Below, piece by piece: positions 13,754 through 52,282 of a DNA stretch of 56,802 nucleotides. The stretch is from a virus. Positions within the stretch are counted from its first letter, which is position 1, and each line of letters starts with the position of its first letter. The translations under genes and the position numbers were made by a program. Where the stretch lies: positions 1 to 56,802 of IMG/VR virus record IMGVR_UViG_3300042446_001034, one strand, 5' to 3'. The notes beneath the pieces were generated by a model. The model searched no databases and was not told the DNA's origin. It was given only the letters and a program-made list of their open reading frames with translations.

Positions 13754-15312
13754 ATACTAGAGAAGTTTTTAATTACAATTGTGCCTACCATAGCAGCATG
13801 GGCACTACACTGATATCTATAGTTTCCGCTGATACTATCTGGAATCTTCCAATACAACGTTCCCGAATCTTTGCCCTGTGCAGATGATCCTGTAGTCACT
13901 GTGCCTCCTGTGGTAACGTGAACCAGCCCAATGTCATAATTAACGCCCGCATTATTCTGTATCAAGAACGGGTGGCCGGTGGCCTGTAAATTAAATGCTA
14001 TAGTAGTTCCGTTTATGGCATATATTGTAGGATCGTCTGTGGTCCCATACTGATCAAATCTATATGCAGATGCGCCGTTATTAGTCACATTAAGTCTTGT
14101 TATAGCCTGTAGATAAAACTGATCTATAGTAAGATCTGCACGATCGCTTAGTCCGGTAAACGCTGTAGCACCTGCTGATACGGTACTAGTGATTGTCACA
14201 GTGTCTGTGCCAGCATTGGTGGCTAGTGAAATACCAGTGCCTGCTACCAATGTTATTGTATCTCCTGGAGATTCTGCTTCAACACTCGACTGCCCTGCTA
14301 CAGCCAATATACCAAAAGCATTTTGACTTGAGCCCGAGTTAGTAATAGTAATGGTGTCGGTGCTAGCATCGGTTGTAAGTGTTATACCTGTGCCAGCCGC
14401 CAATGTCAATGTATCTGTAGACGAATCCGCTACCACTGAACTCTGCCCCGCTACTGCAATTGTAGCAAAACTATCTGACGCTGTGCCACCGCCTCCAGCT
14501 ACTGTGGCCCACGAGTTATCGCCTCTCAAATAAGTACTGGCACTAGGTGTGCCTGCGGCTCCTATACGACCTATGGGCACTGTGCCTGTGGTCAACTGTG
14601 TGGCGTTGAGTGCAGTGAGATTTGAACCACTACTGATTGGCAGTATAGCAGGAAATCTTGCATCGGGTATAGTACCGGTGGTCAATTGCGTAGCATTCAA
14701 TGCGGTAATACTAGCCCCACCACCGCTGAAGTTGGTAGCAGTGAGTAGCCCAGCATCGCTAATGCTGGCTGAGCTGTTTTTAATAGTTGTGCCACTGGTG
14801 CCACTGTATCTAACTATGGCGTTATCGACATAGCTACCTAACACAGAATTGACATTACCTGAACCAGTACCACTTGAGCCAGGTGGACCTGCTGGCCCAG
14901 CAGGTCCTTGCACTGTGGCTGTGGTTTGAACAGTGTTATCTGGAAATCTCAAAGTTCCCCCTAACACCAGGTTAGGAGTTATGGTTATGGGGTTTGCATT
15001 AGTAACACTAAGGGTAGTATCTACAATTGTGATATTTCCAGTAGAGGCCACAGAAGTCAAAGTCACAGTGTCAGTAGATGCATTGGTTGTGATAGCAATA
15101 CCAGAACCTGCTACTAGTGTTAAGGTATCTGTGGCGGTATCTGCTACCACAGTTGACTGTCCTGCAACAACTAAATTAGTGAAACTAGGCGAAGTTGAAA
15201 GATCGTATCCGCTGCTGATCACATTCCAAGCAGTGCCGTTGTATCGCCACGATTTTTGATCAACAGTATAGACTTCGTTGAGTGCTGGGCTATTAGGAAA
15301 ATTTATAGGCAT
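13750..15312 (-). CDS. Tail fibre protein with collagen-like stretch and C-terminal cupredoxin-like domain
   Basis: A 520-residue fibre. Residues 1-35 (INFPNSPALNEVYTVD, then WRYNGTAWNVI) are a common fibre attachment module. Three copies of a roughly 43-residue repeat (AVAGQS..V.A...DTLTL.AG.GI..TT.A.TDT) follow, with two ALNATQLTTGT repeats and a short collagen-like GPAGPAGPPG segment between them. The last 75 residues look like a cupredoxin: H447 in TGHPF and C502-x2-H505-x2-M508 in YQCSAHAAMVG, the ligand set of a type-1 copper site with the loop spacing of amicyanin. A receptor-tip or metal-stabilised head domain is inferred. Confidence 0.8.
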   Translation of the reverse strand: MPINFPNSPALNEVYTVDQKSWRYNGTAWNVISSGYDLSTSPSFTNLVVAGQSTVVADTATDTLTLVAGSGIAITTNASTDTVTLTSVASTGNITIVDTTLSVTNANPITITPNLVLGGTLRFPDNTVQTTATVQGPAGPAGPPGSSGTGSGNVNSVLGSYVDNAIVRYSGTSGTTIKNSSASISDAGLLTATNFSGGGASITALNATQLTTGTIPDARFPAILPISSGSNLTALNATQLTTGTVPIGRIGAAGTPSASTYLRGDNSWATVAGGGGTASDSFATIAVAGQSSVVADSSTDTLTLAAGTGITLTTDASTDTITITNSGSSQNAFGILAVAGQSSVEAESPGDTITLVAGTGISLATNAGTDTVTITSTVSAGATAFTGLSDRADLTIDQFYLQAITRLNVTNNGASAYRFDQYGTTDDPTIYAINGTTIAFNLQATGHPFLIQNNAGVNYDIGLVHVTTGGTVTTGSSAQGKDSGTLYWKIPDSISGNYRYQCSAHAAMVGTIVIKNFSSI

Positions 15313-15330: not shown

Positions 15331-15337
15331 TATTTAT
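15331..15337 (-). promoter_or_regulatory. Late-promoter-like box ATAAATA upstream of cupredoxin fibre
   Basis: The minus strand reads GTTGATAAATATTCCATAG. The box ends 18 nt before the ATG at 15312 and overlaps the stop codon of the upstream protease gene. An AGAGATT lies between, a possible weak ribosome-binding site. Confidence 0.5.
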
Positions 15338-17367
15338 CAACGATTCAGCCGCAATCGCAAACCGCTGTTGATTCTAAGATTGGACAAGATTTTTCTTGAA
15401 CCCGATCTAAATCTAGCATCAATCTGCCCTTGATAAATCACTCGAGCATCGCCTCCTTCGAGACTTTCATAATCCAGCCAATTGGCTGTGTTAGTAGTGG
15501 TTGATTCTGTGCCGAAGTAAAAATCGGCAGCGTCTTGTGTTTCTAGAGATTGCAGCCATGCTTTGACTTCCACCCAGGTCCAGTCTCTATTCCATTCCAA
15601 CACTGTGGCTATAAATCCTGTGGCCACAGGACAGGCAGCACTGGTTCCGCTAAAGGCAGCGTCGGTGGTATTTCCGGAATTGTAACTTAGAGCAGCATAG
15701 GTATCAGGTCTCGGCCAGTTTGTGCCATAGCCTCTATTAGCTGCCAAGGTGCCATCTGCTGGAGCATAAACATCTATGCTGTTCCCCCTATCGCTGTAAC
15801 CAACTTTGGCTTCTTTTGAGGTCTTATAATCGTCATCAAGTGCTCCGATATTGATCACCGGATAAATTACGGCACCAGTGGCATCGGTATATTTGCCGCC
15901 TTGTTGAGGGAATCCTCGGCGATTCGTTGTGCCATATACTGCAACTCCAAACTCACTGAACGTGGAGTTGGCTAAACTTCCGCCGTTGGTGGCGGTAATA
16001 AAATTGTTATAGTCCGGATGACTGCTGTTCACCTGTTTTTGATTGCTGTTACCGGAAGCCGCAACAAAAATCACTCCGGCAGCAATCAATTCATCTTGCG
16101 CTGTGGTCAGTGAATTTGTTTTCATTTCACTTTTCCAACGACCGCCATCTCCCTGTGTGCCCATGTGGCTTAGCCAGTTTATTCCTGTTTCGGTGGTATA
16201 AGCAGTGTTGCTGGTTGACCTATGAGTGTAATAATATGTTGATCCGCCGGGAGCTTTGTCGGATCGATAGCCCCAGCTATTGCTGGTTATTGTGGGATTT
16301 CTAGTGCCAAAGAGAGGATTCACTGGTTTCACGGTATGAAATATTTTCATTATATCAAAGCCCGTTTCTATGCCTGCACCGTAGATGCCGTAAAGATCTA
16401 ATACCCATTTATTGGCATTATAGGCCCAACCTTGTGTTCTTCCGTAGGTTAGTGCAGCACAACAGGTACCGTGATCACCTTCGGTAGATAATGCAGCGTT
16501 GGAGCCATTGCAGTTTGCTCTAGTATAAGCAATAGAAACACCCACTGTGCCTGCATTCGCAAACTGTGCGCTGCGCAGAGCGTTGTTTGACCACCATGAT
16601 CTTGCTACTGACTCTACAGGAACTACGGTGCCGTCCCACCTAGTGATTAATCTCGTGGCAGGATCAGCATTGAACCAATCAGGATCTAGATAATATGGTG
16701 AATCTAGCACCAGATCTAATAGATCACAGGTGCCGTTACCTGGTAGAACATTGCCTCCAACGTATCCACTGGGTTTTGGCACAGCTGCAAACGGACTGGA
16801 ATCAGACAGAGAATTGTTTTGAAATTCTGGATGGCCAATCCAGGTGCCGTCATCTGCAACTATGACATCTATGTGCTTGCCTGTGCCGTATTGTGGAATA
16901 TTGGTATTGACCACTGCATTGTCTGCCAGCGCAGCATCTACCCAAGGATCTAATTTCTGTGTGCATCTATAGAGCTGATACCCAGTTCTGTTGACGTCTG
17001 AGGTATCGGGTGTCACTGCTAGTGTGTTGGAAGCAGCAAATTCTCTATAATTTTTCACCGCAGCAGCATATCTGTTTACTAAATCTGGTCTTACTGAGTG
17101 CAATTCGTCAGGTGGTGGTGTGAATTCAGCATAGCGTTTGTAATCTATGTTGATGAATTTTATTCTTGGATCATTTTTTAACTGCTCTGCTTCGGTGTCA
17201 GTGAGTAGATACGTTCCTCGAGTAGGGCTATGTAATTGATCATCTACACATTCTATTTCTCGAATAGGAACAGATTGATTGACATGTCCTGCCGCAGTTA
17301 GTTCAGCATTTAATTCATCCCACTCTGCTTCAGTATGAGTCGCCAATTGATAATATTTTTTTTCCAT
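15337..17367 (-). CDS. Subtilisin-like serine protease in the fibre locus
   Basis: A 676-residue S8 family protease with its catalytic set visible: Asp in VADDGTWIGHPEF (about residue 171), His in EGDHGTCCAAL (about 298), oxyanion Asn in AASGNSNQ (about 439) and Ser in FSGTSAACPVATG (about 574). Residues 1-110 could be a propeptide-like or attachment domain (EKKYYQLATHTEAEWDELN). The C-terminal 60 residues after the catalytic domain are basic and end with alternating Leu/Arg. No signal peptide is seen, so it is probably carried on or processed within the virion rather than secreted. It lies between two fibre genes, 3 nt from the upstream gene. Roles could be fibre maturation or digestion of a host surface protein. 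Confidence 0.85.
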   Translation of the reverse strand: MEKKYYQLATHTEAEWDELNAELTAAGHVNQSVPIREIECVDDQLHSPTRGTYLLTDTEAEQLKNDPRIKFINIDYKRYAEFTPPPDELHSVRPDLVNRYAAAVKNYREFAASNTLAVTPDTSDVNRTGYQLYRCTQKLDPWVDAALADNAVVNTNIPQYGTGKHIDVIVADDGTWIGHPEFQNNSLSDSSPFAAVPKPSGYVGGNVLPGNGTCDLLDLVLDSPYYLDPDWFNADPATRLITRWDGTVVPVESVARSWWSNNALRSAQFANAGTVGVSIAYTRANCNGSNAALSTEGDHGTCCAALTYGRTQGWAYNANKWVLDLYGIYGAGIETGFDIMKIFHTVKPVNPLFGTRNPTITSNSWGYRSDKAPGGSTYYYTHRSTSNTAYTTETGINWLSHMGTQGDGGRWKSEMKTNSLTTAQDELIAAGVIFVAASGNSNQKQVNSSHPDYNNFITATNGGSLANSTFSEFGVAVYGTTNRRGFPQQGGKYTDATGAVIYPVINIGALDDDYKTSKEAKVGYSDRGNSIDVYAPADGTLAANRGYGTNWPRPDTYAALSYNSGNTTDAAFSGTSAACPVATGFIATVLEWNRDWTWVEVKAWLQSLETQDAADFYFGTESTTTNTANWLDYESLEGGDARVIYQGQIDARFRSGSRKILSNLRINSGLRLRLNR

Positions 17368-17370
17368 GGC

Positions 17371-18480
17371 TTAATGTAGATCTACCCAGGCGCCTCCGGC
17401 ACGTCCTTGAAACTTATTTGTTGTGGTGTTATAGATCATATCGCCGTTGACCGCTGTTAGCAGATCTCTTGCTGCACTTGTAAAAGATGCCATTTTCAAA
17501 GGACTTGCTGTTATCTCTACACGAGTACCAGCCGTTAGTTGTATTTCACTATCTGACAACAGTTCAGGTATTCCTGATCCTTGACTTGAAAAATTGCCAG
17601 TTAACACAATGTCTTTCACTGTCAATTGATTGTTCACTGACAAATTCAATGCAACTTCGACACTGTTATCTATCACAAGATTATTTTGAACTGTGACATC
17701 GGAATCAAAAATTACTGCGGGTGTAAATCTTATTGCAGAAGAATCCGATGAGTCTATAGTGGTCACAGCAAAGGTAATGTTACCTGTGGTGCCGCCGCCC
17801 GTGATCGTGATGTTACCTGAGCTATCAGAGGCTGTGGTGATACCGCCGGCTCCAGTGAATCGAATTGGGCTTCCCGATGTAACTGATCGTAATGTGGAAT
17901 CGTCTGCTTCTACATTTAATACAAATGTCGCGGCCGATACAGCTGAATTGACAAATGCTGTAGAGGCTAATCCAGCCACTGCTGAATTGACAAACCCTGT
18001 AGTGGCGTATCCTGCCACTGCTGTGTTTACATAGGATGTAGAGGCTAATCCAGTCACTGCTGAATTAACATATGATACTGTGGCTAAATTTGTAGTATCG
18101 GGATACGGAGCCACTGGTTGAATCCATTGACTGCTTGACCCGTCGTTGAAATAAACATACAGTATACCGGTATTGGTATCTAACCACAAGTTTCCACTAG
18201 ATGGGGCCACAGGTACACTACTACTTACTGAAACTGTGGTATTTCCGCCACCCCCGCTCACTCCTGCTAAATTAGCCTTGGAAAGAAAGTCTGAGTTGGA
18301 AACGTTGGTTAAATCTGCTTTTGCTAAACTTACACCGCCGACTGTTGATCCGTTGTAAATTCTAAGAGTATTAGCTGTTTGATCGTAAAAAACTTCGCCC
18401 CTTGATCCTGAATTTCTATTTAAAAATCCAGAATCTCTAGGAATTATTCTTACTGCATCGAATACGGGTATTTTGGCCAT
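17371..18480 (-). CDS. Repeat-containing tail fibre protein
   Basis: A 369-residue fibre. Residues 1-45 (VFDAVRIIPRDSGFLNRNSG then GEVFYDQTANTLRIYNG) form an N-terminal attachment module common in aquatic T4-like fibres. Residues about 130-185 hold four to five tandem 14-residue repeats of the type (A/T)GLAST.(Y/F)VN(S/T)AV, a trimeric shaft-like repeat encoded by about 42-nt DNA repeats (17935-18080). The rest is beta-rich, with a C-terminal DMIYNTTTNKFQGRAGGAWV module. The start follows an ATAAATA box by exactly 5 nt and lacks a Shine-Dalgarno sequence. Confidence 0.8.
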   Translation of the reverse strand: MAKIPVFDAVRIIPRDSGFLNRNSGSRGEVFYDQTANTLRIYNGSTVGGVSLAKADLTNVSNSDFLSKANLAGVSGGGGNTTVSVSSSVPVAPSSGNLWLDTNTGILYVYFNDGSSSQWIQPVAPYPDTTNLATVSYVNSAVTGLASTSYVNTAVAGYATTGFVNSAVAGLASTAFVNSAVSAATFVLNVEADDSTLRSVTSGSPIRFTGAGGITTASDSSGNITITGGGTTGNITFAVTTIDSSDSSAIRFTPAVIFDSDVTVQNNLVIDNSVEVALNLSVNNQLTVKDIVLTGNFSSQGSGIPELLSDSEIQLTAGTRVEITASPLKMASFTSAARDLLTAVNGDMIYNTTTNKFQGRAGGAWVDLH

Positions 18481-18492: not shown

Positions 18493-19362
18493 TTAAATAT
18501 AACGAATGTTTGATAGATAATTTATGTATTTTTCAACGCCCGTGTTGATTTGAATAAAATTCTCAACGGTTACTCCCGAACTGATCAGCGATTTGGTATC
18601 AGCAAGGGTGTTAATTTGATATTGATTTTTAAGATCAGTTGGCATATCTATGAATTTTTTTGTTCCTGCGCCTGTATGATCTATGATTGTATCCGCAATA
18701 GTTTCAAAATCTACTCTATTACCAGTGCCTAGATCGTAAATTCCGGGTTGATAATTTTTATACATAAAATGGTATATGGTTTTTGCCACGTCTTCTACCC
18801 ATATAAAATCTCTGAAATAATTCTTACTGTTTTCAAATATTTTTATTTCTCCAGTCTTGCTGAGTTGATCAACCCAGTGCAGAATTGAAGAGGCCATTCT
18901 GCCCTTGTGATATTCATTGGGTCCATAAACATTAAACAGTCGAAGAATAACTCCGTCTATTTCATTCTCGCTGAGTAGTTTGCTAAACGCATATTGATTC
19001 ATTGGGCCTTGACCATTGCCGTATACTGCTGCACTTGAAGTAAAAATAAAAGGTATACTGCGTTCTTTACAAAATGTATTCCACTTTCTTGTTGATTGGA
19101 TATTTGAAGCATAAATCGAACTCCAATTTTTTTCTAGAGTATTTGAATTAGCACCGATATGTATCACTCCAGTGATATTTTCATTAGTTAAGTCAACATC
19201 ATCTATTGATAATAGTCTTTTATACTGTTTACCGATCAAGTTTTTATATTGATTTTCATAGGGCAAATCGTCAACTATGAGAATATCAGTTATTTGTTGA
19301 GAATTTAAATACCCTAATACCACACTGCCAATAAATCCACCAGCACCTGTTAATACTATCAT
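18493..19362 (-). CDS. hldD: ADP-glyceromanno-heptose 6-epimerase, HldD-like
   Basis: A 289-residue extended short-chain dehydrogenase; bacterial HldD is about 310 aa. TGAGGFIGS (residues 5-13) is the NAD(P) Rossmann loop. SSAAVYGNG (about 109-117) and YAFSK (about 124-128) supply the Ser/Tyr/Lys active site. RLFNVYGPNEYHKGRMAS (about 141-158) is close to the HldD signature containing HKG-MAS. HldD converts ADP-D-glycero- to ADP-L-glycero-manno-heptose. It overlaps the kinase gene by 4 nt and ends the heptose operon. A related sugar-nucleotide epimerase is the alternative. Confidence 0.85.
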   Translation of the reverse strand: MIVLTGAGGFIGSVVLGYLNSQQITDILIVDDLPYENQYKNLIGKQYKRLLSIDDVDLTNENITGVIHIGANSNTLEKNWSSIYASNIQSTRKWNTFCKERSIPFIFTSSAAVYGNGQGPMNQYAFSKLLSENEIDGVILRLFNVYGPNEYHKGRMASSILHWVDQLSKTGEIKIFENSKNYFRDFIWVEDVAKTIYHFMYKNYQPGIYDLGTGNRVDFETIADTIIDHTGAGTKKFIDMPTDLKNQYQINTLADTKSLISSGVTVENFIQINTGVEKYINYLSNIRYI

Positions 19363-20114
19363 AAAATTTCTTCCAATGACGGAGCATAAACTCCTAGACG
19401 CTGTACGGTCACTGCACTAGCCCGGACCGCAAACTTAATAGCTTGTTCCATGTCTCGAGAATGGATATACCAATAGGCCAGTGCTGCTAAGAATGTATCA
19501 CCGGCACCGCAGACATCGCTGACCTCAACTACAGGTGCTGGAAATATTTTGTTATTCCAGTCTGCACCCTCTGGGCCTAGTGTCACTATCAGGTTACTGC
19601 ATCTGGTTTTAATTTGACTAAATTCAAAACTGTTTATTTTAACTATACATCCTTCTAGTCTGGCTAGGTCTGTTTTCTTTGTATCAACAAAGATAGGTCC
19701 ATCGAATGTGTTACGTAGGTTTTCAATTAGCTCGTAGGTAACAGTGCCTTTGTTATAGTCACTGATCACCACGGCATTATATCCAGTAAGACTGTAAGGA
19801 ATACTAGGAGGTGTTGATACCACATCGTTGTCGATGCGAACAATCTGTTGTTTACTTCTGATATCAATTAATCTAGTCTTTGTGCTATTTTCTCCGTAGA
19901 CAGAATAAACATTACATCCTAATGCTGCTAGATTATTACAGACATTGCCAGCCATGCCGGGTCTGCTTTCTTCGTGACTGAATTTAAATACAGGAACTGG
20001 GGCTTCGGGACTAATGCGATCAACAGTACCGTATTGATATACGTCTGTGCAATTATCCCCTATGAGTAATATCTTGTATTGCTTTGGTTGTTGAGTATGG
20101 TTCAACTCTGTCAT
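19359..20114 (-). CDS. hldE: D-glycero-manno-heptose 7-phosphate kinase domain (HldE N-domain-like), PfkB family
   Basis: A 251-residue PfkB kinase, shorter than the roughly 310-residue kinase half of bacterial HldE. Seen are GDNCTDVYQYG (about 18-28), the substrate motif RPGMAGNVCNNLAALG (about 51-66), and the catalytic CGAGDTFLAAL (about 203-213) with its Asp base. HldE kinase makes heptose 1,7-bisphosphate. The start at 20114 overlaps the nucleotidyltransferase gene by 62 nt in another frame, so the two halves of HldE are separate polypeptides in reverse order. An internal start further down would delete the first strand, so the overlap is probably real. Confidence 0.82.
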   Translation of the reverse strand: MTELNHTQQPKQYKILLIGDNCTDVYQYGTVDRISPEAPVPVFKFSHEESRPGMAGNVCNNLAALGCNVYSVYGENSTKTRLIDIRSKQQIVRIDNDVVSTPPSIPYSLTGYNAVVISDYNKGTVTYELIENLRNTFDGPIFVDTKKTDLARLEGCIVKINSFEFSQIKTRCSNLIVTLGPEGADWNNKIFPAPVVEVSDVCGAGDTFLAALAYWYIHSRDMEQAIKFAVRASAVTVQRLGVYAPSLEEIL

Positions 20115-20457
20115 AAAATTTTATCTCTTTACAGTATTCTGCACCTATTATAGGTCTGTCCCGATAGTCACTGCCTTTGACCATTACATCAGGTTTAAAA
20201 CCTTTGATCAGGTCTATGAGTTCTTGATCCGTGTCAAATGTTTCCACTCGATCAACATACTTTAGAGCAAACAACATACTGCATCGTTCGTATTCGGTAT
20301 TAACAGGACGAGCTGGACCCTTTAACTCACGTATTCTGCGATCACTGTCAGTTAACACCAATACATAACTGTCGGGGAAACTTCTTGCATACTGCAATAA
20401 TTTTAAATGCCCTAGATGTATAATGTCAAACGTTCCATTGATCACCACTCGTGTCAT
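20053..20457 (-). CDS. hldE: Heptose 1-phosphate adenylyltransferase domain (HldE C-domain-like)
   Basis: A 134-residue cytidylyltransferase-fold enzyme. GTFDIIHLGHLKLLQYA (about 8-24) includes the HxGH nucleotide-binding motif, MVKGSDYRDR (about 91-100) is the KG-substrate loop, and YSTTKAIQDI (about 120-129) corresponds to the STTK signature of this family. It would transfer AMP to heptose 1-phosphate to give ADP-heptose. It overlaps the cupin gene by 4 nt (ATGA) and the kinase gene by 62 nt. A glycerol-phosphate cytidylyltransferase is less likely given its neighbours. Confidence 0.85.
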   Translation of the reverse strand: MTRVVINGTFDIIHLGHLKLLQYARSFPDSYVLVLTDSDRRIRELKGPARPVNTEYERCSMLFALKYVDRVETFDTDQELIDLIKGFKPDVMVKGSDYRDRPIIGAEYCKEIKFYDRVEPYSTTKAIQDITHRG

Positions 20458-20816
20458 GCTTGACTATTTCCTGGGAAGATTCTAAAATTATCTTCTACCG
20501 AATCAGCTGTGCTTACTTCTACAATGATAGAATTATCCTCTAAGGCTTCAAGCTGATGCGGTAACCCGGGAGGATTGTGCCAGTTATCACCTACATTTAA
20601 TATTTTTTCTTGAAGTTTAGCAGTTGCAGTATCTATATACCTCAAAATAAAACTTCCTTGATTAACGTTCCAACTTTCATCCTTGACTAGATGATAATGC
20701 ATGGAGCATTTTGCTTTGGCTTTTTCAAATACCAAGTATTTTCCGCAGTATTTTTCTGTTGTTGAAAAGATAATTTCATATCCCCACCCCTTTTGTACTC
20801 TTCCATCTAGTCTCAT
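20454..20816 (-). CDS. Cupin-fold sugar-phosphate isomerase-like protein
   Basis: A 120-residue single-domain cupin. The opening GWGYEIIF (about 11-18), CSMHYHLVKDESW (about 37-49, with metal-binding His and Glu) and PPGLPHQLEAL (about 82-92) match mannose-6-phosphate isomerase-type cupins. It lies in the heptose operon, 4-nt ATGA overlap with the adenylyltransferase. A role as the missing sedoheptulose 7-phosphate isomerase is conceivable but unproven, since GmhA is a different (SIS) fold. The 86-nt gap upstream shows a GGGATA ribosome-binding site. Confidence 0.7.
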   Translation of the reverse strand: MRLDGRVQKGWGYEIIFSTTEKYCGKYLVFEKAKAKCSMHYHLVKDESWNVNQGSFILRYIDTATAKLQEKILNVGDNWHNPPGLPHQLEALEDNSIIVEVSTADSVEDNFRIFPGNSQA

Positions 20817-20902
20817 TTTATTTTATCCCAACATATTTGCATCGTGATTACCAACTCTTAAATAAATGTACACTGTTTTTTACCGGTTATCAATAGAATT
20901 TT

Positions 20903-21529
20903 TTACGCTAATGTGCTGGCAAATTCTGCCAAATTATTGTATATCAGTGTTTTTCTTTTGATCTCTCTATAGGTATACTTTTTTAATTCTTTTTCAGTTT
21001 CTGCACCATAGCCTGTTCTTACTAAAATTGGCCTAGCTCCGATTTTAATTGCTGCTTTGAGATCTTTGATTTTATCACCAACATAATATCCACCTTTGAA
21101 TTTTATAGTCGGATGTTCAGTTTCGCATCTTGTAAACATCCCTGTATTGGGTTTGGCATAGTAGTCTTCTTTGCGACTAGAAGTAGAATAATATATTGCA
21201 TCAATGCTAGGACAGCCTGCTTTGCCCAACAGTTGCAACATATGTTTGTGTGTGGTGTCTACATCATCACTGGTGTATATGCCTTTTTCTATACCACCTT
21301 GATCTGTAATGATCACAATCTTGTATCCTTTGTTTCTCAAAAAAGCCACAGCTTCTAGACTTCCTCCAATTGGATCAAAATCTTCTGGGCGAAAACAATA
21401 TGTTCCAAGGTCTTGATTTATTACACCGTCTCGATCTAATCCAATCACACAACGGTTGGATTCTAACGAAGAGTTAAATGTATTTGCACCAGGATTGATT
21501 GATGCATAATCGATTAAGGATTTACTCAT
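20903..21529 (-). CDS. gmhB: HAD phosphatase, GmhB-like (heptose 1,7-bisphosphate 7-phosphatase)
   Basis: The likely start is the ATG at 21529 (208 aa); a longer frame adds 14 residues from 21571 but would begin inside the divergent promoter. HAD motifs are present: LDRDGVIN (motif I, both Asp), TDQGG (motif II), KPNTGM (motif III Lys) and GDKIKDL (motif IV). The order and KP.TGM context are typical of GmhB, which removes the C7 phosphate of heptose bisphosphate. The Cys/His zinc loop of typical GmhB is replaced by a Cys-free stretch (YYSTSSRKEDYYA). It lies upstream of the other heptose genes. Confidence 0.8.
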   Translation of the reverse strand: MSKSLIDYASINPGANTFNSSLESNRCVIGLDRDGVINQDLGTYCFRPEDFDPIGGSLEAVAFLRNKGYKIVIITDQGGIEKGIYTSDDVDTTHKHMLQLLGKAGCPSIDAIYYSTSSRKEDYYAKPNTGMFTRCETEHPTIKFKGGYYVGDKIKDLKAAIKIGARPILVRTGYGAETEKELKKYTYREIKRKTLIYNNLAEFASTLA

Positions 21530-21570
21530 TTTTTGTGATCTATAAAAATTTATTACGAAATTTAAACACA

Positions 21571-21577
21571 ATAAATA
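21571..21577 (+). promoter_or_regulatory. Late-promoter-like box ATAAATA upstream of SGNH-like gene
   Basis: The plus strand reads CACAATAAATAGTGTC, 43 nt before the ATG at 21621. It lies in the gap between the divergent GmhB-like and SGNH-like genes. No clear Shine-Dalgarno sequence precedes the ATG. Confidence 0.45.
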
Positions 21578-21620
21578 GTGTCATATTACTTATATCTAGA
21601 ACAACATTTAAAAAAAACTT

Positions 21621-22322
21621 ATGAAAAATTTATGGGTATTTGGAGACAGTTATGCTATTCCTTATCAAAATGATTTAGAATCTCGTGTACATTGGCAATT
21701 TTCATTAATGAAAAATCTAAATTGTGATGGTGTAAAAACTTTTGCGCAGTTTGGGGCACCCAACGAATGGATCTATAATCAATTTACAGAACAATTGCAT
21801 GAAATCACACCAAATGATTTTGTGATTTTTGTTTCCACACAGATAAACAGGAGATGGTTTTTTCCAGATAACGTTGGCTCCTCTAACTTTGCCGTCAGTC
21901 ACAGTGATCTGGCTGATTTATCTAGTGAGCAAAAAACTGCACTGAAATACTACATGACCTATCTTGATAATCCTATCATGTCATTTATAAATTTTGAATG
22001 TCTTTGTAATTCTATACACCGTGTTTCAGAAAAAAATAAAATAAATTTATTAATTCTACCAGGATTTGAACAAAAAGGCTATCCAATCAGCGGGAGATAT
22101 CAAGTCAGCGGATCATTGTTTGACATCTGTGTTAATGAAGTCAAAGGAAAAGATCTAGATTCGTGGTCAAATTTTATTTCTAACATCCACAAGGGGCGTG
22201 ATCCTAGAGTAGGACATCTAAGTCAGGATAACCACGAAATACTAGCAGACAAGTTATCTGCTACTTTTTTAAAAAACAAAATTTTAAATTTAGAGCAAGG
22301 GTTTCGAGAAGAATTTCTCTAG
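21621..22322 (+). CDS. SGNH/GDSL-like hydrolase or acyltransferase-type protein
   Basis: A 233-residue protein starting MKNLWVFGDSYAIPY, where GDSY (residues 8-11) supplies the block I nucleophile Ser of SGNH enzymes. QFGAPNEWI (about 43-51) could be the Gly-Asn region (block II/III), and GHLSQDNHEILAD (about 198-210) carries a D-x-x-H-like pair near the C-terminus, as expected for block V. SGNH enzymes remove or add acyl groups, often on glycans. It is the only plus-strand gene inside the sugar module and is AT-rich. The exact reaction cannot be told. Confidence 0.65.
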   Translation: MKNLWVFGDSYAIPYQNDLESRVHWQFSLMKNLNCDGVKTFAQFGAPNEWIYNQFTEQLHEITPNDFVIFVSTQINRRWFFPDNVGSSNFAVSHSDLADLSSEQKTALKYYMTYLDNPIMSFINFECLCNSIHRVSEKNKINLLILPGFEQKGYPISGRYQVSGSLFDICVNEVKGKDLDSWSNFISNIHKGRDPRVGHLSQDNHEILADKLSATFLKNKILNLEQGFREEFL

Positions 22323-22330
22323 ACCCTTGC
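22295..22330. terminator. Hairpin between convergent SGNH-like and carbamoyltransferase genes
   Basis: GCAAGGGT (22295-22302) pairs with ACCCTTGC (22323-22330), with inner GAGAA/TTCTC pairing. It overlaps the plus-strand stop codon. On the minus strand the stem is followed by TCTAAATTTAAAATTTT, moderately T-rich, so it could terminate the carbamoyltransferase transcript and possibly both strands. Confidence 0.6.
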
Positions 22331-22335
22331 ATATA

Positions 22336-24144
22336 TTAGTTAATAATCGAAATTAACTTTTGGTATTCTGGAAGATACAAGTATTCTATCTTACTTTGTT
22401 GCAAAGTCCAGAATGCATCTTCCAAGGTTTCAACTAGTGGTTCGCCACCTAGATTAAAACTGGTATTGAAAACTATTGGAAATCCTGTTTCTTCTTTGAA
22501 CTTTTTTATAAGTCTGTAATACAATGGATTTTGTTCTTCATTGACTGTTTGAATACGGCAAGATCCATCAACATGGATAATGCTTGGAATTTTGTCAGCT
22601 ACACCAGGCTTGCAAGAAACTGCATACATCATATGTGGTGAATCATCCATGCCTCGCAGATCAAACCATTCATGTGTATCTTCTTCTAAGATCGAACCTG
22701 CAAATGGACGGAAATATTCTCTACGCTTGACACCGTTGACAAAATCTTTGCCGTCTTTAAATCTAGGATCAAATAACAAACTTCTATTGCCCAGTGCTCT
22801 CGGACCGCTTTCCGATCTACCCTGAAATATAGCAACAATATTTTTTGATGTCAACAGATCAACAATTTCTGCATCATCACATTGTTTAATTTCTGCACCA
22901 TATTTTTCAGCCAACGAACTGATTTGATCTTCAGTGTATGTGTATTTTGGACCGAGATATAGATCGCTGTTGTGTTTTTTATTAGATTCTTCTTGGGTAT
23001 GATAATGCAACAGGGCAACTCCGATAGCAGTGCCACCGTCGTTGGATATTGGTTCAACATACAGTTCAATGTCAAGCTCACGCAGAGTATTTAGGTAGTG
23101 ATAATTTGCCACACAGTTTAACCCGTATCCTCCGCTGAGCACTACATTTTTTTTACCTGTTGCTGTTGCCGCTTTAATAATTAGGTTCAACACCTGTTCT
23201 TGTGTTTCAGTCTGCACCGCATATGCGAGATCTCTGCGATTTTGAAGATAGGTTAGATCGCCATCTGCAAATTCTGAAAGTTCTGTCACAGCTACAACAT
23301 TTACAAACGCTGAGTTTGGATAAGTTGGTATTATGACGTTTCTGTCTGCTAGGTTAAATTCACTAGTATTGTTTAGATTAGTAAACAGTGGTGGAATTTT
23401 TTCATTCTTTTTACCATAGGGAAATAATCCCATGGTCTTTCCTGCTTCGATTGCAGGAAATCCACAATATTCAGTTACAGCTTCGTAGGTTTTTACAATA
23501 CCTGCCCTATCCGACAGCACTGCGGAAAATGTACCTTCTTCTTGTAGAACTTCCCCAGCCTGTTCTACCATATTTACAGGTATGCCATCACGACATCCTA
23601 GATGTTTATAAATTGTTTTAAACTTTGCAGGATATGCGCAATCTATAACCGATTCAACTTCCCACAACAATATTGGTTCACCTCTGAGATTGGCAGGAGT
23701 TGACGAGCCAGCACCATCTACAATAACTGCAACAGCTTCGTCAAATCCGCTGCGATAAAAAGCGCAGGCTGCATGAATTTTATGATGTTGGTGGCTGTAA
23801 TCTATTACCTGCGGGTGATTGTAAATATCCGCTTTTCTATCAATCAATCCAATTTTTCTAGCCAGACCCACATAAATATTATCCCCTGTAAAATCCACTT
23901 TTTGTCCGGTGTGTTCTAGACTCTGTGTATGAGAAATGACCATGTAATCTATTTTATCAGTGTATTCTTTGACTTTTATGATACCTGCATAAGGACCACC
24001 ATCGTATTTGTGCCTGCTTAATCTTTCTTCTTCTAAAGCAAACACTATTTCGCCATCTTTAAGCAAACATACGCCAGCATTATGTCCGCGACTTATGCCA
24101 AGAATATATCCAGTTTTTTCAAGTGTGTTATTTTTTTCGTTCAT
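22336..24144 (-). CDS. O-carbamoyltransferase, NodU/CmcH/TobZ family
   Basis: A 602-residue protein from the ATG at 24144 (a TTG 18 nt upstream is open but less likely). The N-terminal Kae1-like domain starts GYILGISRGHNAGVCLL and has EEERLSRHKYDGG. A SHQHHKIHAACAFY motif (about 124-137) supplies metal-binding His, and IVDGAGSS follows. The C-terminal domain includes the hallmark GRSESGPRALGNRS (about 442-455) and FNTSFNLGGEPLVE. The family transfers a carbamoyl group from carbamoyl phosphate via carbamoyl-AMP to sugar hydroxyls. It follows the GT9-like gene with 1 nt spacing, suggesting the sugar that is transferred is also carbamoylated. Confidence 0.9.
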   Translation of the reverse strand: MNEKNNTLEKTGYILGISRGHNAGVCLLKDGEIVFALEEERLSRHKYDGGPYAGIIKVKEYTDKIDYMVISHTQSLEHTGQKVDFTGDNIYVGLARKIGLIDRKADIYNHPQVIDYSHQHHKIHAACAFYRSGFDEAVAVIVDGAGSSTPANLRGEPILLWEVESVIDCAYPAKFKTIYKHLGCRDGIPVNMVEQAGEVLQEEGTFSAVLSDRAGIVKTYEAVTEYCGFPAIEAGKTMGLFPYGKKNEKIPPLFTNLNNTSEFNLADRNVIIPTYPNSAFVNVVAVTELSEFADGDLTYLQNRRDLAYAVQTETQEQVLNLIIKAATATGKKNVVLSGGYGLNCVANYHYLNTLRELDIELYVEPISNDGGTAIGVALLHYHTQEESNKKHNSDLYLGPKYTYTEDQISSLAEKYGAEIKQCDDAEIVDLLTSKNIVAIFQGRSESGPRALGNRSLLFDPRFKDGKDFVNGVKRREYFRPFAGSILEEDTHEWFDLRGMDDSPHMMYAVSCKPGVADKIPSIIHVDGSCRIQTVNEEQNPLYYRLIKKFKEETGFPIVFNTSFNLGGEPLVETLEDAFWTLQQSKIEYLYLPEYQKLISIIN

Positions 24145-24145
24145 A

Positions 24146-25198
24146 TTAGTTTGTTTTTTCAAAAATATTTTTTAAAGTTGCATCTAATGGTGTCTTTGGC
24201 AATTCAACTTGAGGAATTCCGCACGTTGTCTGATTTGACAACATAGGTGTACTAGCAGATTCGTTGAATTTTTTTGTCGACTTGCCTAATTTTTTTACTA
24301 TGCCGTCTACTATTTTGTCGAATTCAGAATCTTCAAGGATCATCAAATCTTCATTGTTTCGATCCACTGTGAAATCAGTGGTTATCCTTAGAGGTGAGTA
24401 GGTACGCTTGTCTTTGCCGTTGTCGATGATGGTAAAATCTTTGTTGTTAGGATAACTGATGTTTTGAGGAAAGGTAGAGCCAATGACCACTGTGGCTGGC
24501 TTTTTCAGTGCATGAGCAAAATGCTGTCCAACACTGTCGCAGCCAAGAAAATAGTCTGCTGCATTAATAACGCCCATCCATTGAAGCAGATTAAATTTTT
24601 CTGGAACTATGGCAGGCATGGGCCGCACAGACGGTATGTTAAATGTAGACATCATGACAATACCGTAGTTTTTGCTCAGTTCATCTACAAGTCTGTAGAT
24701 ATCTTTTAGTTCAAAACTTCTACCAGATTCGTCTATGATAAAATTACCTTCTTGTCTAGCACCTGATCCAAACGGTTGAAATACTATGACTTTTTCTTTC
24801 TTGAATTGTTCACGAACATTGTTGATTAAATTATAACCCAGCGCCTGATCAGCTTTGCCTATGGACAAATTGATGTTTTTGGTGTCTGGAACTTCTGATA
24901 AATCGTTTATCAGCATGTCGAATGCTTGAATTAAATTGGCTTTTTGATTGAAATAAGCGTTTAATCGATATGGTTCAGGAGTGACGATTTCTTTGTCTTT
25001 TAATTTATCTCTAAACAGATCTTTCTGCATAATGGAATATACGTTGTTTCTTAGTATATCGCTGGACAAAAACAACTCTAACCATGCTTCGGCTACTATT
25101 ACCACATCACTATCAACTGTTTTCAAATAGTGTTCGAGTGCTGGAATTGCACACAGTACACGTCCGGCTCCTCCATTTACAAAAAATGCTTTTTTCAT
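24146..25198 (-). CDS. GT9-like (heptosyltransferase-type) glycosyltransferase
   Basis: A 350-residue protein with a GT-B layout. The N-terminus KAFFVNGGAGRVLCAIPALE (about 3-22) matches the GGxGD/R-x-Leu-x2-x-Pro-Ala-Leu entry of ADP-heptose:LPS heptosyltransferases. The C-terminal domain contains FQPFGSGARQEG (about 139-150), YFLGCDSVGQHFAHALKKP (about 216-234) and VIGSTFPQNIS, the donor-binding region of GT9 proteins (D-S-x-G-x-H-x-A-A). It has a GTGGAG ribosome-binding site. With ADP-heptose genes next to it, heptose transfer is the natural inference; the acceptor is unknown. Confidence 0.75.
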   Translation of the reverse strand: MKKAFFVNGGAGRVLCAIPALEHYLKTVDSDVVIVAEAWLELFLSSDILRNNVYSIMQKDLFRDKLKDKEIVTPEPYRLNAYFNQKANLIQAFDMLINDLSEVPDTKNINLSIGKADQALGYNLINNVREQFKKEKVIVFQPFGSGARQEGNFIIDESGRSFELKDIYRLVDELSKNYGIVMMSTFNIPSVRPMPAIVPEKFNLLQWMGVINAADYFLGCDSVGQHFAHALKKPATVVIGSTFPQNISYPNNKDFTIIDNGKDKRTYSPLRITTDFTVDRNNEDLMILEDSEFDKIVDGIVKKLGKSTKKFNESASTPMLSNQTTCGIPQVELPKTPLDATLKNIFEKTN

Positions 25199-25684: not shown

Positions 25685-26401
25685 TTATGGAGTAATCCTA
25701 CCGTGTCCTAATATCATCACACTGGTTACGCAGGCAAACGGCTGAGTGCCGCTGGGGGTAGTAAAACACACCGATTTCAAACAAGCAGGGTGACCGCCAC
25801 AGCAGCTATAGCCTTGTCCAGAATTTCTATTACCAATACAGCACCAACCGTCACCGTTATTAGACATTGTGAAACAATAATGAAAACCTCTTTGACTGCC
25901 GTTGCAGACATTGTCTGGCACCATACTCACATGAAAGTTGAAGCCTTGAATAGTGCAGGCTGTGTCACAGCCCGAACTACAGCCAAACGGCCAAGCAATT
26001 GCCCCGGCGCATTGCCAGTTTTCTGAACCGTTCATACACTTTCTGTCTCCGACCCAACCGCAGGCACAATGAGCGCAGCAGTATTGATCAAAATTATCAC
26101 TGCAGGCTCCACCGCAGGCTCCGGCAAATCCAAACGTGGCCTGAGAACAGTAATACTGCCAGTAGCTGGTATGCCCTACAATTTCATATCTGCTAAAAAC
26201 TCCTCGAGAAGAAGATGGTATCACAGCCGACCCATTCCAACATCCATTGCAATTATACAATATGGTTGGGGTGTTAGCGGCCGTAGGGCCGCTAGCACCT
26301 CCACTTGGAAATTGCACATCAAACAATTTGGTGTCAATATACTCTTTTAAAATCCGTTGATTTTCAACGATTGCATTGTAGACTAAAATATCATTACTCA
26401 T
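25685..26401 (-). CDS. Cysteine-rich fibre-like protein, smaller (23 Cys in 238 aa)
   Basis: The N-terminus (SNDILVYNAIVENQRILKE) is a helical attachment-type segment similar to the first residues of the neighbouring gene (ADILVHNAI). From residue about 50 onward the protein has 23 Cys by my count, as single residues and as CC pairs (CCAHCAC, CCIGN, CCGGH), with many Gly, Ser, Asn and Trp. There is no signal peptide, which is unusual for such cysteine content because the host cytoplasm is reducing. Dense metal binding or disulfide formation after lysis would explain it. It has an AGGGAAA ribosome-binding site. Function unknown; adhesin or receptor-binding tip inferred from position. Confidence 0.75.
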   Translation of the reverse strand: MSNDILVYNAIVENQRILKEYIDTKLFDVQFPSGGASGPTAANTPTILYNCNGCWNGSAVIPSSSRGVFSRYEIVGHTSYWQYYCSQATFGFAGACGGACSDNFDQYCCAHCACGWVGDRKCMNGSENWQCAGAIAWPFGCSSGCDTACTIQGFNFHVSMVPDNVCNGSQRGFHYCFTMSNNGDGWCCIGNRNSGQGYSCCGGHPACLKSVCFTTPSGTQPFACVTSVMILGHGRITP

Positions 26402-26420: not shown

Positions 26421-27428
26421 TTAACACCAACTGACCTTGACCATGCCTGTGCGTCCCCAGTCGCCGTAGCCAATGTTGCCGCCCATCACGTGATTATAGT
26501 TTCCGCCTTGGCCTGGTTGACATCTGTTTCCAGTGCAGGCGCCACCAAAAGCTGCGCCGCAGCAGGTGCCCGAAGTGTATGAGACACAGCATATGGTCGA
26601 TACAGTGTTTGCACAGTTGCCTGGCAACATGGTAGGCTGTGAGCACATGCATCCGTAAAAATTGGTGTCAAACCAATCTGCAGCATACATGCTGGGGATT
26701 ATGATCGGAGTACCCCAGATTGAATTGCCGCAGCCGCCTGTAAAGTAACTGAACTGTCTTGTGATACAAGGATATGCTGAACAGCAACTGATCGAGCAGG
26801 AATTTGAGAAGCAAAAATATGTAGCAGTGCTTGTACAACAGATACAAGCACCTGCTGATTGAGAACATCTAGCCATATATCTACAACAGTTCCAGGCTGG
26901 ATCTCGCTGAGTGGCACGAATCATTTCGTGTAAATTACTGCAGCCGCCATTGGCGCAGAAGTTGCTGAGGCCAGCACCAGTGACAAAACTTTGACATCCC
27001 GAAACATCTCTATCGCAGTGGCAATACGATTGATTGGAATTAGCGGCGCCTGCACACAGCGTGTATACACAGCCTATTTTGGCACTGACAATCAATGAAG
27101 CATATGCTCCTGTGGCACCAAAAGGACTGCCGCTGCAACACATGCCTGGCGAGGTTCCTGCACCAGCACCCCACAGTTCAAATCTCACCTGACTGGCGCC
27201 AGCGGGCACAGTCCAGGCACAACAGGCTCCGTCTCTAAAATATCCACTACCTGAATCATATATGCACAAGGCGTTGGTTGTCTGTAATGATGGTATACAG
27301 CTGGGCCAGTTTGCATACTGTGTAGGGTCTGTCGAAACACTGCCTTGACTGGCAACACCGGATGCCAAGGCAGTTCTTAAATTGTAACTGCCTACTGCTA
27401 TTGCGTTGTGAACTAAAATATCTGCCAT
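26421..27428 (-). CDS. Cysteine-rich, glycine-rich fibre-like protein, larger (35 Cys in 335 aa)
   Basis: Residues 1-45 resemble the attachment segment of the next gene (ADILVHNAIAVGSYNLR). Residues about 70-130 look like a phage glycine-rich fibre domain (CAWTVPAGASQVRFELWGAGAG, split here; then a Cys-Gly-rich strand region ending VYTLCAGAA), a fold common in fibre tips. I count 35 Cys, including many CC pairs (CICC, SISCCS, TICC, GTCCG). The final residues GYGDWGRTGMVKVSWC close a Gly-rich domain. Ribosome-binding site AAGGAAA. No secretion signal. This is a paralogue in style of the downstream gene, but the sequence is not simply duplicated. Confidence 0.78.
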   Translation of the reverse strand: MADILVHNAIAVGSYNLRTALASGVASQGSVSTDPTQYANWPSCIPSLQTTNALCIYDSGSGYFRDGACCAWTVPAGASQVRFELWGAGAGTSPGMCCSGSPFGATGAYASLIVSAKIGCVYTLCAGAANSNQSYCHCDRDVSGCQSFVTGAGLSNFCANGGCSNLHEMIRATQRDPAWNCCRYMARCSQSAGACICCTSTATYFCFSNSCSISCCSAYPCITRQFSYFTGGCGNSIWGTPIIIPSMYAADWFDTNFYGCMCSQPTMLPGNCANTVSTICCVSYTSGTCCGAAFGGACTGNRCQPGQGGNYNHVMGGNIGYGDWGRTGMVKVSWC

Positions 27429-28053: not shown

Positions 28054-28374
28054 TTACGCTGTTGCGGTTTCGATGCCATAGACCACAACATTTACACCAA
28101 CAGCACTGGAACGCACTACTAGTAATTTTCCTGCGTCCATGACAATTCCTGTACGTTCTAGCACACCTTTAGCAGATAGACTCACGTCATACTCCAGCCA
28201 TTCTGCGTCAGTGGGGGTTGCAGAACTTGCTAATGCTATTCGTATCGTGGCAGCTGTAGCACCACGATTTACCACGTTGACAGTTGCCACTGTGAATGTT
28301 GTAGCAGGCACAGTATACACTGTTGCCAGTGTTGCTGCTGATAGATCTGCTGTTCCTAATCTTCCTGTTGCCAT
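28054..28374 (-). CDS. Small beta-sandwich virion protein
   Basis: A 106-residue protein predicted to be almost all beta: VYTVPATTFTVATVNVVNRG, WLEYDVSLSAKGVLER and a final VVVYGIETATA. The order of strands resembles two other small proteins in the window (41872-42204 and 45292-45693), suggesting a shared minor fibre or decoration fold. A CTAAATA box and an ACGGAG ribosome-binding site lie upstream. Confidence 0.65.
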   Translation of the reverse strand: MATGRLGTADLSAATLATVYTVPATTFTVATVNVVNRGATAATIRIALASSATPTDAEWLEYDVSLSAKGVLERTGIVMDAGKLLVVRSSAVGVNVVVYGIETATA

Positions 28375-28391: not shown

Positions 28392-28398
28392 TATTTAG
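28392..28398 (-). promoter_or_regulatory. Late-promoter-like box CTAAATA upstream of small beta protein
   Basis: The minus strand reads GAACTAAATATAACGGAG. It overlaps the stop codon of the giant fibre gene and would give a short leader containing ACGGAG before the ATG at 28374. Confidence 0.5.
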
Positions 28399-31300
28399 TT
28401 CAAAAAGTAATTGAATGCCAAAGGTATCCCTGTGACTCCGCCTCTGAATTCAAAGTTGGCATTCATTTTAATTGGTGCTAGTGTAGTAGTAGTTATAATG
28501 TTAGAGCTAATAAAAATACTACCTGCTGTGATTGAGTTGACATTCAAACTTGCACCTCCACCACCAATTTGTCCCGCAATATAAGCCTTGATGGCTCGCT
28601 GTGTAGGCACTATGTTGTCTGAATCTGCTGTAAAGAATGGATCTGTGGAGAATTCAGTGATTGTTGCTGATCCACCGCCCAATGTCACGTTGCCCAAATT
28701 AAGTTCTTGCAGTCCTGAAATATTAAATGCATCTGCATTCAGAGTAGCAATACCTGTGCTTTGCTCAATGGCAAACAGATCTCCCACTCGGAAGTTGCCG
28801 TCTTGGTCCGTTGATGTAAAGAACACCCTACCGCCTCCACTATCCACTGCTTCGTTGGCAGCAATAACGGGCTGGGTGCTTAGTCCTGGATAATTGGTTT
28901 CTGCAAAATTGCCTGTGCCTATGTCCAAGAAATCGTGTCCAGTCAATCTAACCTGACTGTATCTAATTCTAGTTTCAACGCTGACTCCGTCTGTCGGAGC
29001 TTCTGATCTAGTCAACTGTGGACTGAGTTGGAAGAATGCTGTGTAAGCACCGTCATTGGTGCCCAAGAATGTGACCACGTTGACCAACTTGAAAGTTCTA
29101 TCAGGTAAATGACTGAACACCACGTTGGCTCCTGGCACTGGTTGAGCACTAATTCTTCTCATGGCCACAAACGAACCTGGTTGGAATAGATTGGAATAAC
29201 CGTCACCGATATCTACCTCACCACTTCCTGTAACATAACCCGATCCCCTGTTAACAAAACTAGGATTGGCCAACACACCACTGCCAGTTCTCACAGTTAC
29301 GGGAGATTCAAATGTGTTGTTGGGATCAGTGAATGTAATAGTTGGTGCTGTGGCATAGCCCGATCCAGGTTCTGTGATATTAACTTGGAACAGTTTTTCA
29401 GCAGCCACTTTGGCACGACCTCTAGCGGTGGCTCCAGTTCTAATATAAGTGGCTACTTGTCCTGTACCATCACCAACTCCTACGAACTGGCCATATCTGT
29501 TTCTATTACCAAATGTGATAGCTGAGAACCCAAGAGCTGCTGCACTGGTGGCTCTTAGAGTCCAGGTAACGCCATCTGGCGATGTTGCTGCTGCTGTGGT
29601 TGTGCTCACAGCAAGAAACACGCCCTGACCGTAAGTCACGCTAGTCCATGATGCTGTGGCTGGTAGTGTGCTGGCTGTCCATGTAATACCATCCAAGCTG
29701 TAAGCAGCTATGGTTCCGCTAGTGTTGGATACAGCAACAAATCTGTTGTTACCGTAGGCAATGCTTCTCCAGTTTGAGCTAGAAGGCAATGTACCTGCAG
29801 TCCATGTGCCTGTGACTGTAGTCGATGTGGCATAATTAGTTACATTAGTGCCGCTCTTAATTGCAACAAATCTATTTTTACCGTAGGCAATAGCTGTGAA
29901 TCCAGTGGTAGTTAGTGTACCAGTTTGATCCCAATTTTCGCCGTCATTGCTGATTCTCACTGTGGTTACATCGCTGCTGACTGCTACAAATTTTTGTGCA
30001 CCAAACGCTACGTCAACCCATGTAGCAGAAGTTCCCATGCTGGTTGCTGTCCAAGTAATACCATCTGAGCTGTATGCACCTGTGGTGTTGGCACTGGTGC
30101 CTGCCACTGCCACAAATTTGCTGACCTTGCCTACAGAAGAGTTATCGTCAAATAGACCCGCAGCCATTGCATCCCAGTTTGCAGCACTAGGCATCAAGCT
30201 GGCTCTTGTATCCCAAGCGATTCCATCTTCTGAAGTTGCACCTACTGTGCTTCCGCTTCTTAGAGCCACATATCTGCCACCTATGCCGTAACCGCTGTGG
30301 TCAAAATCTAAAATAGCACCTGTAGTGGAATTCACTGCGGTGATTGTGATCACTAGATCATTGGCAGTTGTGGTGCCGCCTAGGCTGGTACCTAGTATGG
30401 TTATGGTTTGTAATCTAGCATAACCTGTTCCGGCACCCTGAATAGATGGTATATATTTCCATCCATTACGTATCACTGTAAATGTGGCACCTATTCCTGA
30501 TCCAGCATAAGTGCCTGTAACTGTGGTGTATACCGCAGCAGTTTCACCATATTTTACAGCTCTCCAATCGCCGTTAGTTGGCAGCGTAGCGGCTGTGCTA
30601 GTGTATCCAGGTGCTGCAAATGTTACTCTTGGTTCAATAACATATGTTGAAGAAGCATCTGGTGCTATAATTGCAGTGCCTGCTATCAAATGATCAAATC
30701 CTGCTGTTCCGTCTGATTCTTTAACCAGTCCAGCTACTTTTGTGCCTGAATTATAAGTGGTAATTATTCCAAATTGTCCTACTCCAGCGCCACCTGTAAG
30801 CACAATTTTCATGCCTATGTAGGCAGTGCTGGATTCGCCGTCTGTGGCAGCTATGGTTATACTAGTCAATGTTCCGCCCTGAGCAGTGCTGGCAGCAGTC
30901 TTATAACCAAATCCACCAAGATTTCCTTCGGCCTCAGGAGCATTGGTGCTGTCTTCTATAAGGTCCAACATGCGAACTTCAAACACAGCATCATCACGGA
31001 ATTCATCGGTTTGAACTATAGCTCCTGTGCCGCCGCCAGTGAGCGTATAAGTGACTTCTGTATAGTCAATACCTGCGTTGGTGAATTCCAATTGTATCAG
31101 TGCTGATCCGTCGGTGATAACACGATCAATTTGTGCGTCAAATTGCAGGCGGTTGTCAACTACGGCTGTGCCGGCAGTTTCAGTTGCGTCGAAACCTTCT
31201 GCCACAGAACCAAAATCTCCGTATGAGTTGTTGCCGTTTGTGGCTCGTATTCTTCCACCGTTTTCCGCTAGATATGCAATGTGTGCGTAATAGCTAAACA

Positions 31301-52275: not shown

Positions 52276-52282
52276 TATTTAT
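52276..52282 (-). promoter_or_regulatory. Late-promoter-like box ATAAATA, 4 nt before ATG at 52271
   Basis: The minus strand reads TTCAATAATAAATACATTATG. It overlaps the portal gene stop codon. The box-to-ATG gap is 4 nt. Confidence 0.5.

Follow-up and report, generated by a model that had tools for sequence, protein, structure and literature searches.

Positions 1–56,802 of the IMG/VR virus record IMGVR_UViG_3300042446_001034, a stretch of 56,802 nucleotides referred to below as the window, contain a module of eight genes (18493–25198) whose products, judged from their sequences, very probably make ADP-heptose. GmhA, the usual phosphoheptose isomerase of this pathway, is missing, and a small cupin encoded within the module would in all likelihood be its non-orthologous replacement, a sedoheptulose-7-phosphate isomerase, so that the phage would need only sedoheptulose-7-phosphate from its host. 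That the module as a whole constitutes a self-sufficient phage pathway of ADP-heptose synthesis, transfer and decoration we regard as fairly probable. The most inclusive proposal is a tentative one, to which we give slightly less than an even chance: a new family of cupin-fold sedoheptulose-7-phosphate isomerases in phages, DPANN archaea and bacteria of the candidate phyla radiation (CPR), serving in the phage for host-independent formation of ADP-heptose and for placing carbamoylated heptose on its own fibre adhesins, not on lipopolysaccharide (LPS). The replacement of GmhA by a cupin and the link to archaeal and CPR operons are new here; the phage module was already known as annotated sequence. 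A literature search, outside of which subscription papers fell, returned no paper describing a cupin at the GmhA step of heptose synthesis.

A first-pass annotation had described the region as an eight-gene heptose module flanked by fibre genes. All eight open reading frames (ORFs) are in place between tail-fibre genes, and PHROG fibre families are found on both sides (13750–15312, 17371–18480, 28054–28374 and 28395–35924; the directly flanking one, 17371–18480 on the minus strand, matches phrog_9729 with 3e-7). On the minus strand, the module encodes an HldD-like ADP-heptose 6-epimerase of 289 amino acids (aa; 18493–19362), a shortened HldA-like heptose-7-phosphate kinase (251 aa; 19359–20114; phrog_8133, 9.5e-89), an HldC-like heptose-1-phosphate adenylyltransferase (134 aa; 20053–20457), the cupin (120 aa; 20454–20816), a GmhB-like HAD phosphatase (at most 222 aa, with an uncertain TTG start codon; 20903–21571), a NodU/CmcH-type O-carbamoyltransferase (608 aa; 22336–24162) and a GT9-fold glycosyltransferase, probably a heptosyltransferase (350 aa; 24146–25198; phrog_8954). 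The only module gene on the opposite strand (21621–22322) codes for an SGNH-hydrolase-like protein of 233 aa, a possible sugar esterase or acyltransferase. The kinase and adenylyltransferase genes overlap but are separate, confirming that the two halves of HldE are encoded individually. Since the same gene order recurs in many other phages, it is not due to chance.

The synthesis enzymes were graded by the NCBIfam equivalog cut-offs and aligned with their references from Escherichia coli MG1655, where the pathway consists of GmhA, HldE, GmhB and HldD. The epimerase (TIGR02197, 227 bits against a cut-off of 274.6) retains the catalytic pair Tyr140 and Lys178 of HldD, the kinase (TIGR02198, 146 bits) the GAGD and RISPEAPVP motifs, the adenylyltransferase (TIGR02199, 105 bits) the HxGH motif, and the phosphatase (PRK08942, 129.5 bits) the DRDG and GDKxxD motifs of GmhB. 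HldD, both halves of HldE and GmhB are thus recognizable with their key residues; the window differs from E. coli in having a cupin for GmhA, a split HldE, a kinase shorter than the kinase part of HldE and a GmhB without the zinc-binding Cys/His loop. Because their scores fall below the curated cut-offs, we consider all four enzymes divergent members of their families. The dN/dS ratios of the epimerase, kinase, adenylyltransferase and cupin genes range from 0.04 to 0.22 (rough values, dS being high in several pairs) and that of one GT9 pair is 0.154, indicating that the genes are under purifying selection. Together with the aligned catalytic residues and the conservation of the set across phages, these ratios lend good support to the ADP-heptose synthesis predicted by the first-pass annotation.

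In the proposed mechanism, the steps are ordered as in the known pathway, and the enzyme families are assigned from sequence and fold. The cupin would convert host sedoheptulose-7-phosphate into manno-heptose-7-phosphate, the reaction of GmhA, the kinase would produce the 1,7-bisphosphate, the HAD enzyme would remove phosphate 7, the adenylyltransferase would form ADP-D,D-heptose and the epimerase ADP-L,D-heptose. Transfer of the heptose would then fall to the GT9-like enzyme, with the late phase of infection as the most likely time and a fibre or adhesin protein encoded by a neighbouring gene as the most likely acceptor. The carbamoyltransferase and the SGNH protein would decorate the sugar, as would sulfotransferases and 2-oxoglutarate (2OG) oxygenases in related phages.

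No match to GmhA (TIGR00441) was obtained in the window, in agreement with the earlier annotation, or in 37 other phage records (38 of 38 without it), including eight longer than 320 kb and three complete cyanophage genomes. All eight of these large records contain the cupin, as do all 31 annotated records from phages or marine viruses in which this kinase occurs. Its match to Cupin_1 of Pfam is weak and its AlphaFold model is confident (pLDDT 93.7). All 35 homologues retain the HxH...E...H, KGWGxE, K45 and ExST...D..R signatures, and the fold or profile matches include D-lyxose isomerase, L-ribose isomerase and mannose-6-phosphate isomerase. With the known cupin isomerases (type II phosphomannose isomerase, D-lyxose isomerase and archaeal glucose-6-phosphate isomerase) the window protein has the fold and the metal-ligand pattern in common, with some of them also weak profile similarity; the same kind of aldose-ketose reaction is proposed for it, but on sedoheptulose-7-phosphate.

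Two candidates for a GmhA in phages were set aside. The annotated 'phosphoheptose isomerases' of the cyanophages P-SSM2, S-SSM7 and S-CAM1 are proteins of 107–114 aa that correspond to small HAD phosphatases of the EcbF/BcbF type; this RefSeq label (L082, 12716–13060; L083, 20702–21037; L084, 10731–11054) is likely a misannotation, as is 'cysteine dioxygenase' for the cupin in RefSeq cyanophages. An E. coli-like GmhA is encoded by Caulobacter phage Cr30 and some other phages, but Cr30 represents a separate case, being absent from both the kinase and the cupin matches.

A link to cellular organisms came from a genome collection, in which an operon headed by the cupin (cupin-HldD-HldA-GmhB-HldC) was identified in Woesearchaeota, other nanoarchaea and one metagenome-assembled genome (MAG) of Nomurabacteria. 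In one such operon (L162) HldA (381 against 345 bits) and HldC (182.1 against 181.5) exceed the curated cut-offs, and the cupin matches the phosphomannose isomerase part of TIGR01479. The operon cupins are 44–50% identical to the cupin of P-SSM2 and 35–37% identical to that of the window. These archaeal and CPR operons (L154–L165) have the five functions and the cupin family in common with the window and are without GmhA; unlike the window, they encode a full-length kinase and a zinc-type GmhB in another gene order, and neither fibre genes nor the phage-type pair of GT9 and carbamoyltransferase were found in them. Two loci titled Neomarinimicrobiota (L141 and L142) were left out as cellular evidence; with a fibre-like gene of 2125 aa they look like phage contigs inside a MAG.

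The distribution of GmhA and cupin was then compared in two groups, for which the genomes were partly picked via cupin-bearing relatives. In the archaeal phylum of one cupin-operon genome, the kinase is present in 62 of 279 genomes, and the best 42 of these 62 were followed up. GmhA is found in 28 and the cupin in 14 of them: 26 have GmhA only, 12 the cupin only, two both and two neither (Fisher p = 6.6e-7, a statistic that ignores relatedness). At the kinase gene itself the separation is complete, with GmhA in 25 genomes, the cupin in 12, neither in five and both in none. The two proteins also occupy the same slot, the order GmhA-epimerase-kinase-HAD-nucleotidyltransferase (G290, G167, G234, G133 and G174) being paralleled by cupin-epimerase-kinase-HAD-nucleotidyltransferase (G261, G081 and G070), and either can be fused to the kinase (the cupin in G333, G076, G087, G315 and G195; GmhA in G124, G145 and G277). 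In a CPR phylum, 15 of 287 genomes carry the kinase and ten of the 15 GmhA; the remaining five (G051, G361, G517, G539 and G569), and no others, have a cupin next to the kinase or as a fusion with it (p = 3.3e-4, again ignoring relatedness). Three of these five are fusions, two with the opposite domain order, so the kinase-cupin fusion, seen in eight genomes in total, probably arose more than once. When both groups are pooled, the cupin stands at the kinase gene in 17 of 57 kinase-bearing genomes and together with GmhA in none. Replacement of GmhA is the reading that best accounts for a shared position in the operon, a shared fusion partner and the near-exclusion of the two proteins in both groups. 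The annotation had left this step to the host or to the cupin; operon slot, exclusion and fusions speak for the cupin and against reliance on the host.

Among phages the synthesis genes are widespread. A scan of viral contigs for the kinase matched 198 stretches, and 84 loci were examined (80 of the 198, the window and three cyanophages). Alongside the kinase, the adenylyltransferase is present in 80 of them, an epimerase in 70, the cupin in 64 and a GmhB-type HAD in 23, with small HADs in others. P-SSM2 (PSSM2_307–313), S-SSM7 and S-CAM1 carry, beside fibre genes, the same set as the window in the form of the T4-GC 302–308 cluster: genes for the GT9-like protein, carbamoyltransferase, adenylyltransferase, kinase, a small HAD, cupin and epimerase. 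They differ from the window in that their HAD is small and EcbF-like and the epimerase gene lies on the opposite strand; the window has a GmhB-like HAD and an extra SGNH gene. A cyanophage comparison of 2010 counted T4-GC 304, 305, 307 and 308 in a set of seven 'LPS genes' that occur together and left undecided whether these work or represent stuffer DNA (PMC3037559). They correspond to the adenylyltransferase, kinase, cupin and epimerase of the pathway to ADP-heptose, respectively. In some variants of the island, 2OG-Fe(II) oxygenases and sulfotransferases (L006–L010) or a tryptophan halogenase (S-SSM7) are inserted, as expected of a decoration island. The L006–L010 genes, a further sulfotransferase and 2OG-Fe(II) oxygenases among them, lie between the carbamoyltransferase and the cupin, and in L008 (2758–4017) a sulfotransferase is fused to an aspartyl/asparaginyl hydroxylase-like domain. 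In many aquatic phages (L015, L033, L035, L045, L057, L062 and similar) the heptose genes are situated between a ClpP-like gene and an aminotransferase gene in the opposite orientation, the product of which resembles aminotransferases of the 5-aminolevulinate synthase type.

The annotation had also assigned heptose transfer to the GT9-like protein. By sequence its membership in GT9 is marginal (PF01075, 21.8 bits against a cut-off of 22), and a profile search against PDB sequences gave no match, but a fold search with its AlphaFold model (pLDDT 81) retrieved heptosyltransferases, the best PDB matches being a GT9 enzyme, WaaF, WaaC and TibC. TibC is a protein heptosyltransferase. With WaaC/WaaF and TibC the window protein has in common the GT-B fold and the C-terminal D-S/T-G-x-x-H motif, at about 10–14% identity; nothing points to an assembly like that of TibC. 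Asp13 is catalytic in WaaC, and in all 14 GT9 homologues compared an Arg stands in its place; the chemistry or the acceptor therefore probably differs from those of the LPS enzymes, and we neither assume ordinary LPS heptosyltransfer nor file the protein as WaaC-type. A heptosyl group is the likely moiety transferred, on the strength of the modelled fold. The assignment thus stands as regards the fold and is at odds with WaaC at Asp13.

The carbamoyltransferase has both domains, Carbam_trans_N and Carbam_trans_C (1.9e-58 for the latter), and belongs to the PHROG 'Nol-like carbamoyltransferase' (phrog_1601, 1.6e-166); from the adjacency of the genes, carbamoylation of the heptose is plausible. 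The SGNH-like protein has no family match in Pfam, NCBIfam or PHROG; its assignment comes from motifs, the GDS motif being present and the C-terminal His motif (block V) partial, and weak relatives occur in the same island of other phages. Almost every one of 25 viral loci has its GT9 and carbamoyltransferase genes together, usually preceded by a Cys/Gly-rich adhesin-like gene. The window homologue of the latter, a Cys-rich protein adjoining the module (26421–27428, minus strand), is a candidate acceptor; it and its neighbour (25685–26401, minus strand) are both very rich in Cys and Gly. The kinase is missing from seven of 18 GT9 records, all seven being fragments of 56 kb or less. Not every jumbo phage with synthesis genes has a detectable GT9, and the transferase may therefore vary.

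We see an even chance that the acceptor is a fibre or another virion protein. In unrelated phages, too, the module is located inside a fibre cluster. Furthermore, of ten copies of ATAAATA, the core of T4-type late promoters, in the window, six precede the start of a same-strand ORF by at most 60 nt; the total count is not above chance, their positions alone are. Several copies are located 13 nt before the called start, so that the true starts of these ORFs may lie further downstream. The divergent gap between the HAD and SGNH genes (21548–21621) contains such promoter-like motifs on both strands: ATAAATA (21571–21577, plus strand) before the SGNH gene and, on the minus strand, TATAAGTA, 23 nt upstream of the HAD ORF. 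The LPS of cyanobacteria, including that of Synechococcus WH8102, has been described as free of heptose and 3-deoxy-D-manno-octulosonic acid (Kdo), with exceptions in other cyanobacteria (PMC4515613). Three phages with WH8102 as the recorded host (Sf-CH5, Sf-CH8 and Sf-FS3) carry the module, which points to a new acceptor. Placement in the fibre cluster, late-type promoters and the absence of heptose and Kdo from the LPS of the relatives' hosts favour fibres or another new acceptor.

Several observations weigh against this account. All four synthesis enzymes score below their equivalog cut-offs, non-isomerases such as oxalate decarboxylase and quercetinase also figure among the best fold matches of the cupin, and the Arg of the GT9-like protein departs from the heptosyltransferases it resembles. 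The p-values for exclusion are not strict, since the genomes are related and the MAGs incomplete. The argument from LPS covers the cyanophage relatives and does not directly extend to the window phage, whose capsid and portal group with those of jumbo myoviruses of other hosts. Finally, in many phages neither fibre genes nor this GT9 are found near the synthesis genes, so that the acceptor may differ. In many aquatic phages (L015, L033, L035, L045, L057, L062 and similar) the heptose genes are situated between a ClpP-like gene and an aminotransferase gene in the opposite orientation, the product of which resembles aminotransferases of the 5-aminolevulinate synthase type.

The alternative that survives best, though we hold it to be the less probable one, is that the same pathway adds a possibly carbamoylated heptose to the LPS or another envelope glycan of the host, thereby blocking adsorption of other phages or altering the receptor. 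Carbamoylated heptose occurs in the Pseudomonas LPS core, some relatives of the window capsid and portal infect Pseudomonas, and the GT9 model has WaaC and WaaF among its best fold matches. The cyanophage authors likewise named these genes for LPS (PMC3037559). However, expression from a late fibre cluster with late-type promoters would come late for superinfection exclusion, Asp13 of WaaC is not kept, and heptose and Kdo are absent from the LPS of WH8102, the recorded host of three phages with the module.

It is unlikely that the product is a different activated sugar, such as another ADP-sugar or D,D-heptose, with the enzyme names valid no further than the family and the cupin acting as a generic sugar isomerase or epimerase. 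The low equivalog scores, the shortened kinase and the EcbF-like HAD that marine cyanophages have in place of GmhB would agree with it; four independent heptose-pathway families together, the retained catalytic pair of HldD and a well-scoring archaeal ADP-heptose operon with the same five functions argue for heptose. Similarly improbable, in our view, is a cupin that is not the isomerase but modifies a sugar intermediate further down the pathway or has a regulatory role in it, the GmhA product being supplied by the host. Cupins catalyse many reactions, and cupin-fold sugar-nucleotide epimerases are known in heptose modification (PMC7949155), but mutual exclusion with GmhA at the kinase gene in two groups, the shared position in the operon, kinase fusions with one or the other protein and the similarity to phosphomannose isomerase all favour the isomerase. 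That the genes are non-functional stuffer DNA for headful packaging, a possibility raised in PMC3037559, is rejected on the dN/dS ratios of 0.04–0.22 and has next to no probability given also the intact active sites and the recurrence in many phage groups.

As for the origin of the window, its capsid and portal genes (47571–48740 and 52282–53991) are nearest to those of jumbo myoviruses, namely Sinorhizobium phage Phosso, Vibrio phage 2.275.O, PA5oct and GAP32, which infect Sinorhizobium, Vibrio, Pseudomonas and Cronobacter. The 57-kb window therefore probably derives from a jumbo phage whose fibre cassette is related to the one in P-SSM2; with capsid and portal nearest to jumbo myoviruses of other hosts, a cyanophage host is not supported. 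Inside the fibre cluster, a 676-aa subtilase (15337–17367, minus strand; Pfam Peptidase_S8, 3e-20), 89% identical to its counterparts in L006–L009, is a possible fibre-processing or virion protease. The tail sheath (4711–8235, minus strand) probably carries an insertion, as it is longer than the matching PHROG profile (1174 aa against 915 positions). For the 900-aa ORF at 53988–56690 no match was found.

If the cupin is indeed a sedoheptulose-7-phosphate isomerase, a function would be given to a family that is unassigned or misnamed ('cysteine dioxygenase', 'nucleotidyltransferase') in many aquatic phages, DPANN archaea and CPR bacteria, and the cupin would be a further case, after glucose-6-phosphate isomerase, of a cupin displacing an isomerase of another fold. 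The result also bears on the question, posed in 2010, of whether the 'LPS genes' of cyanophages are functional. Cultured phages, P-SSM2, S-SSM7 and S-CAM1 among them, would allow a direct test for heptosylation of tail-fibre proteins.

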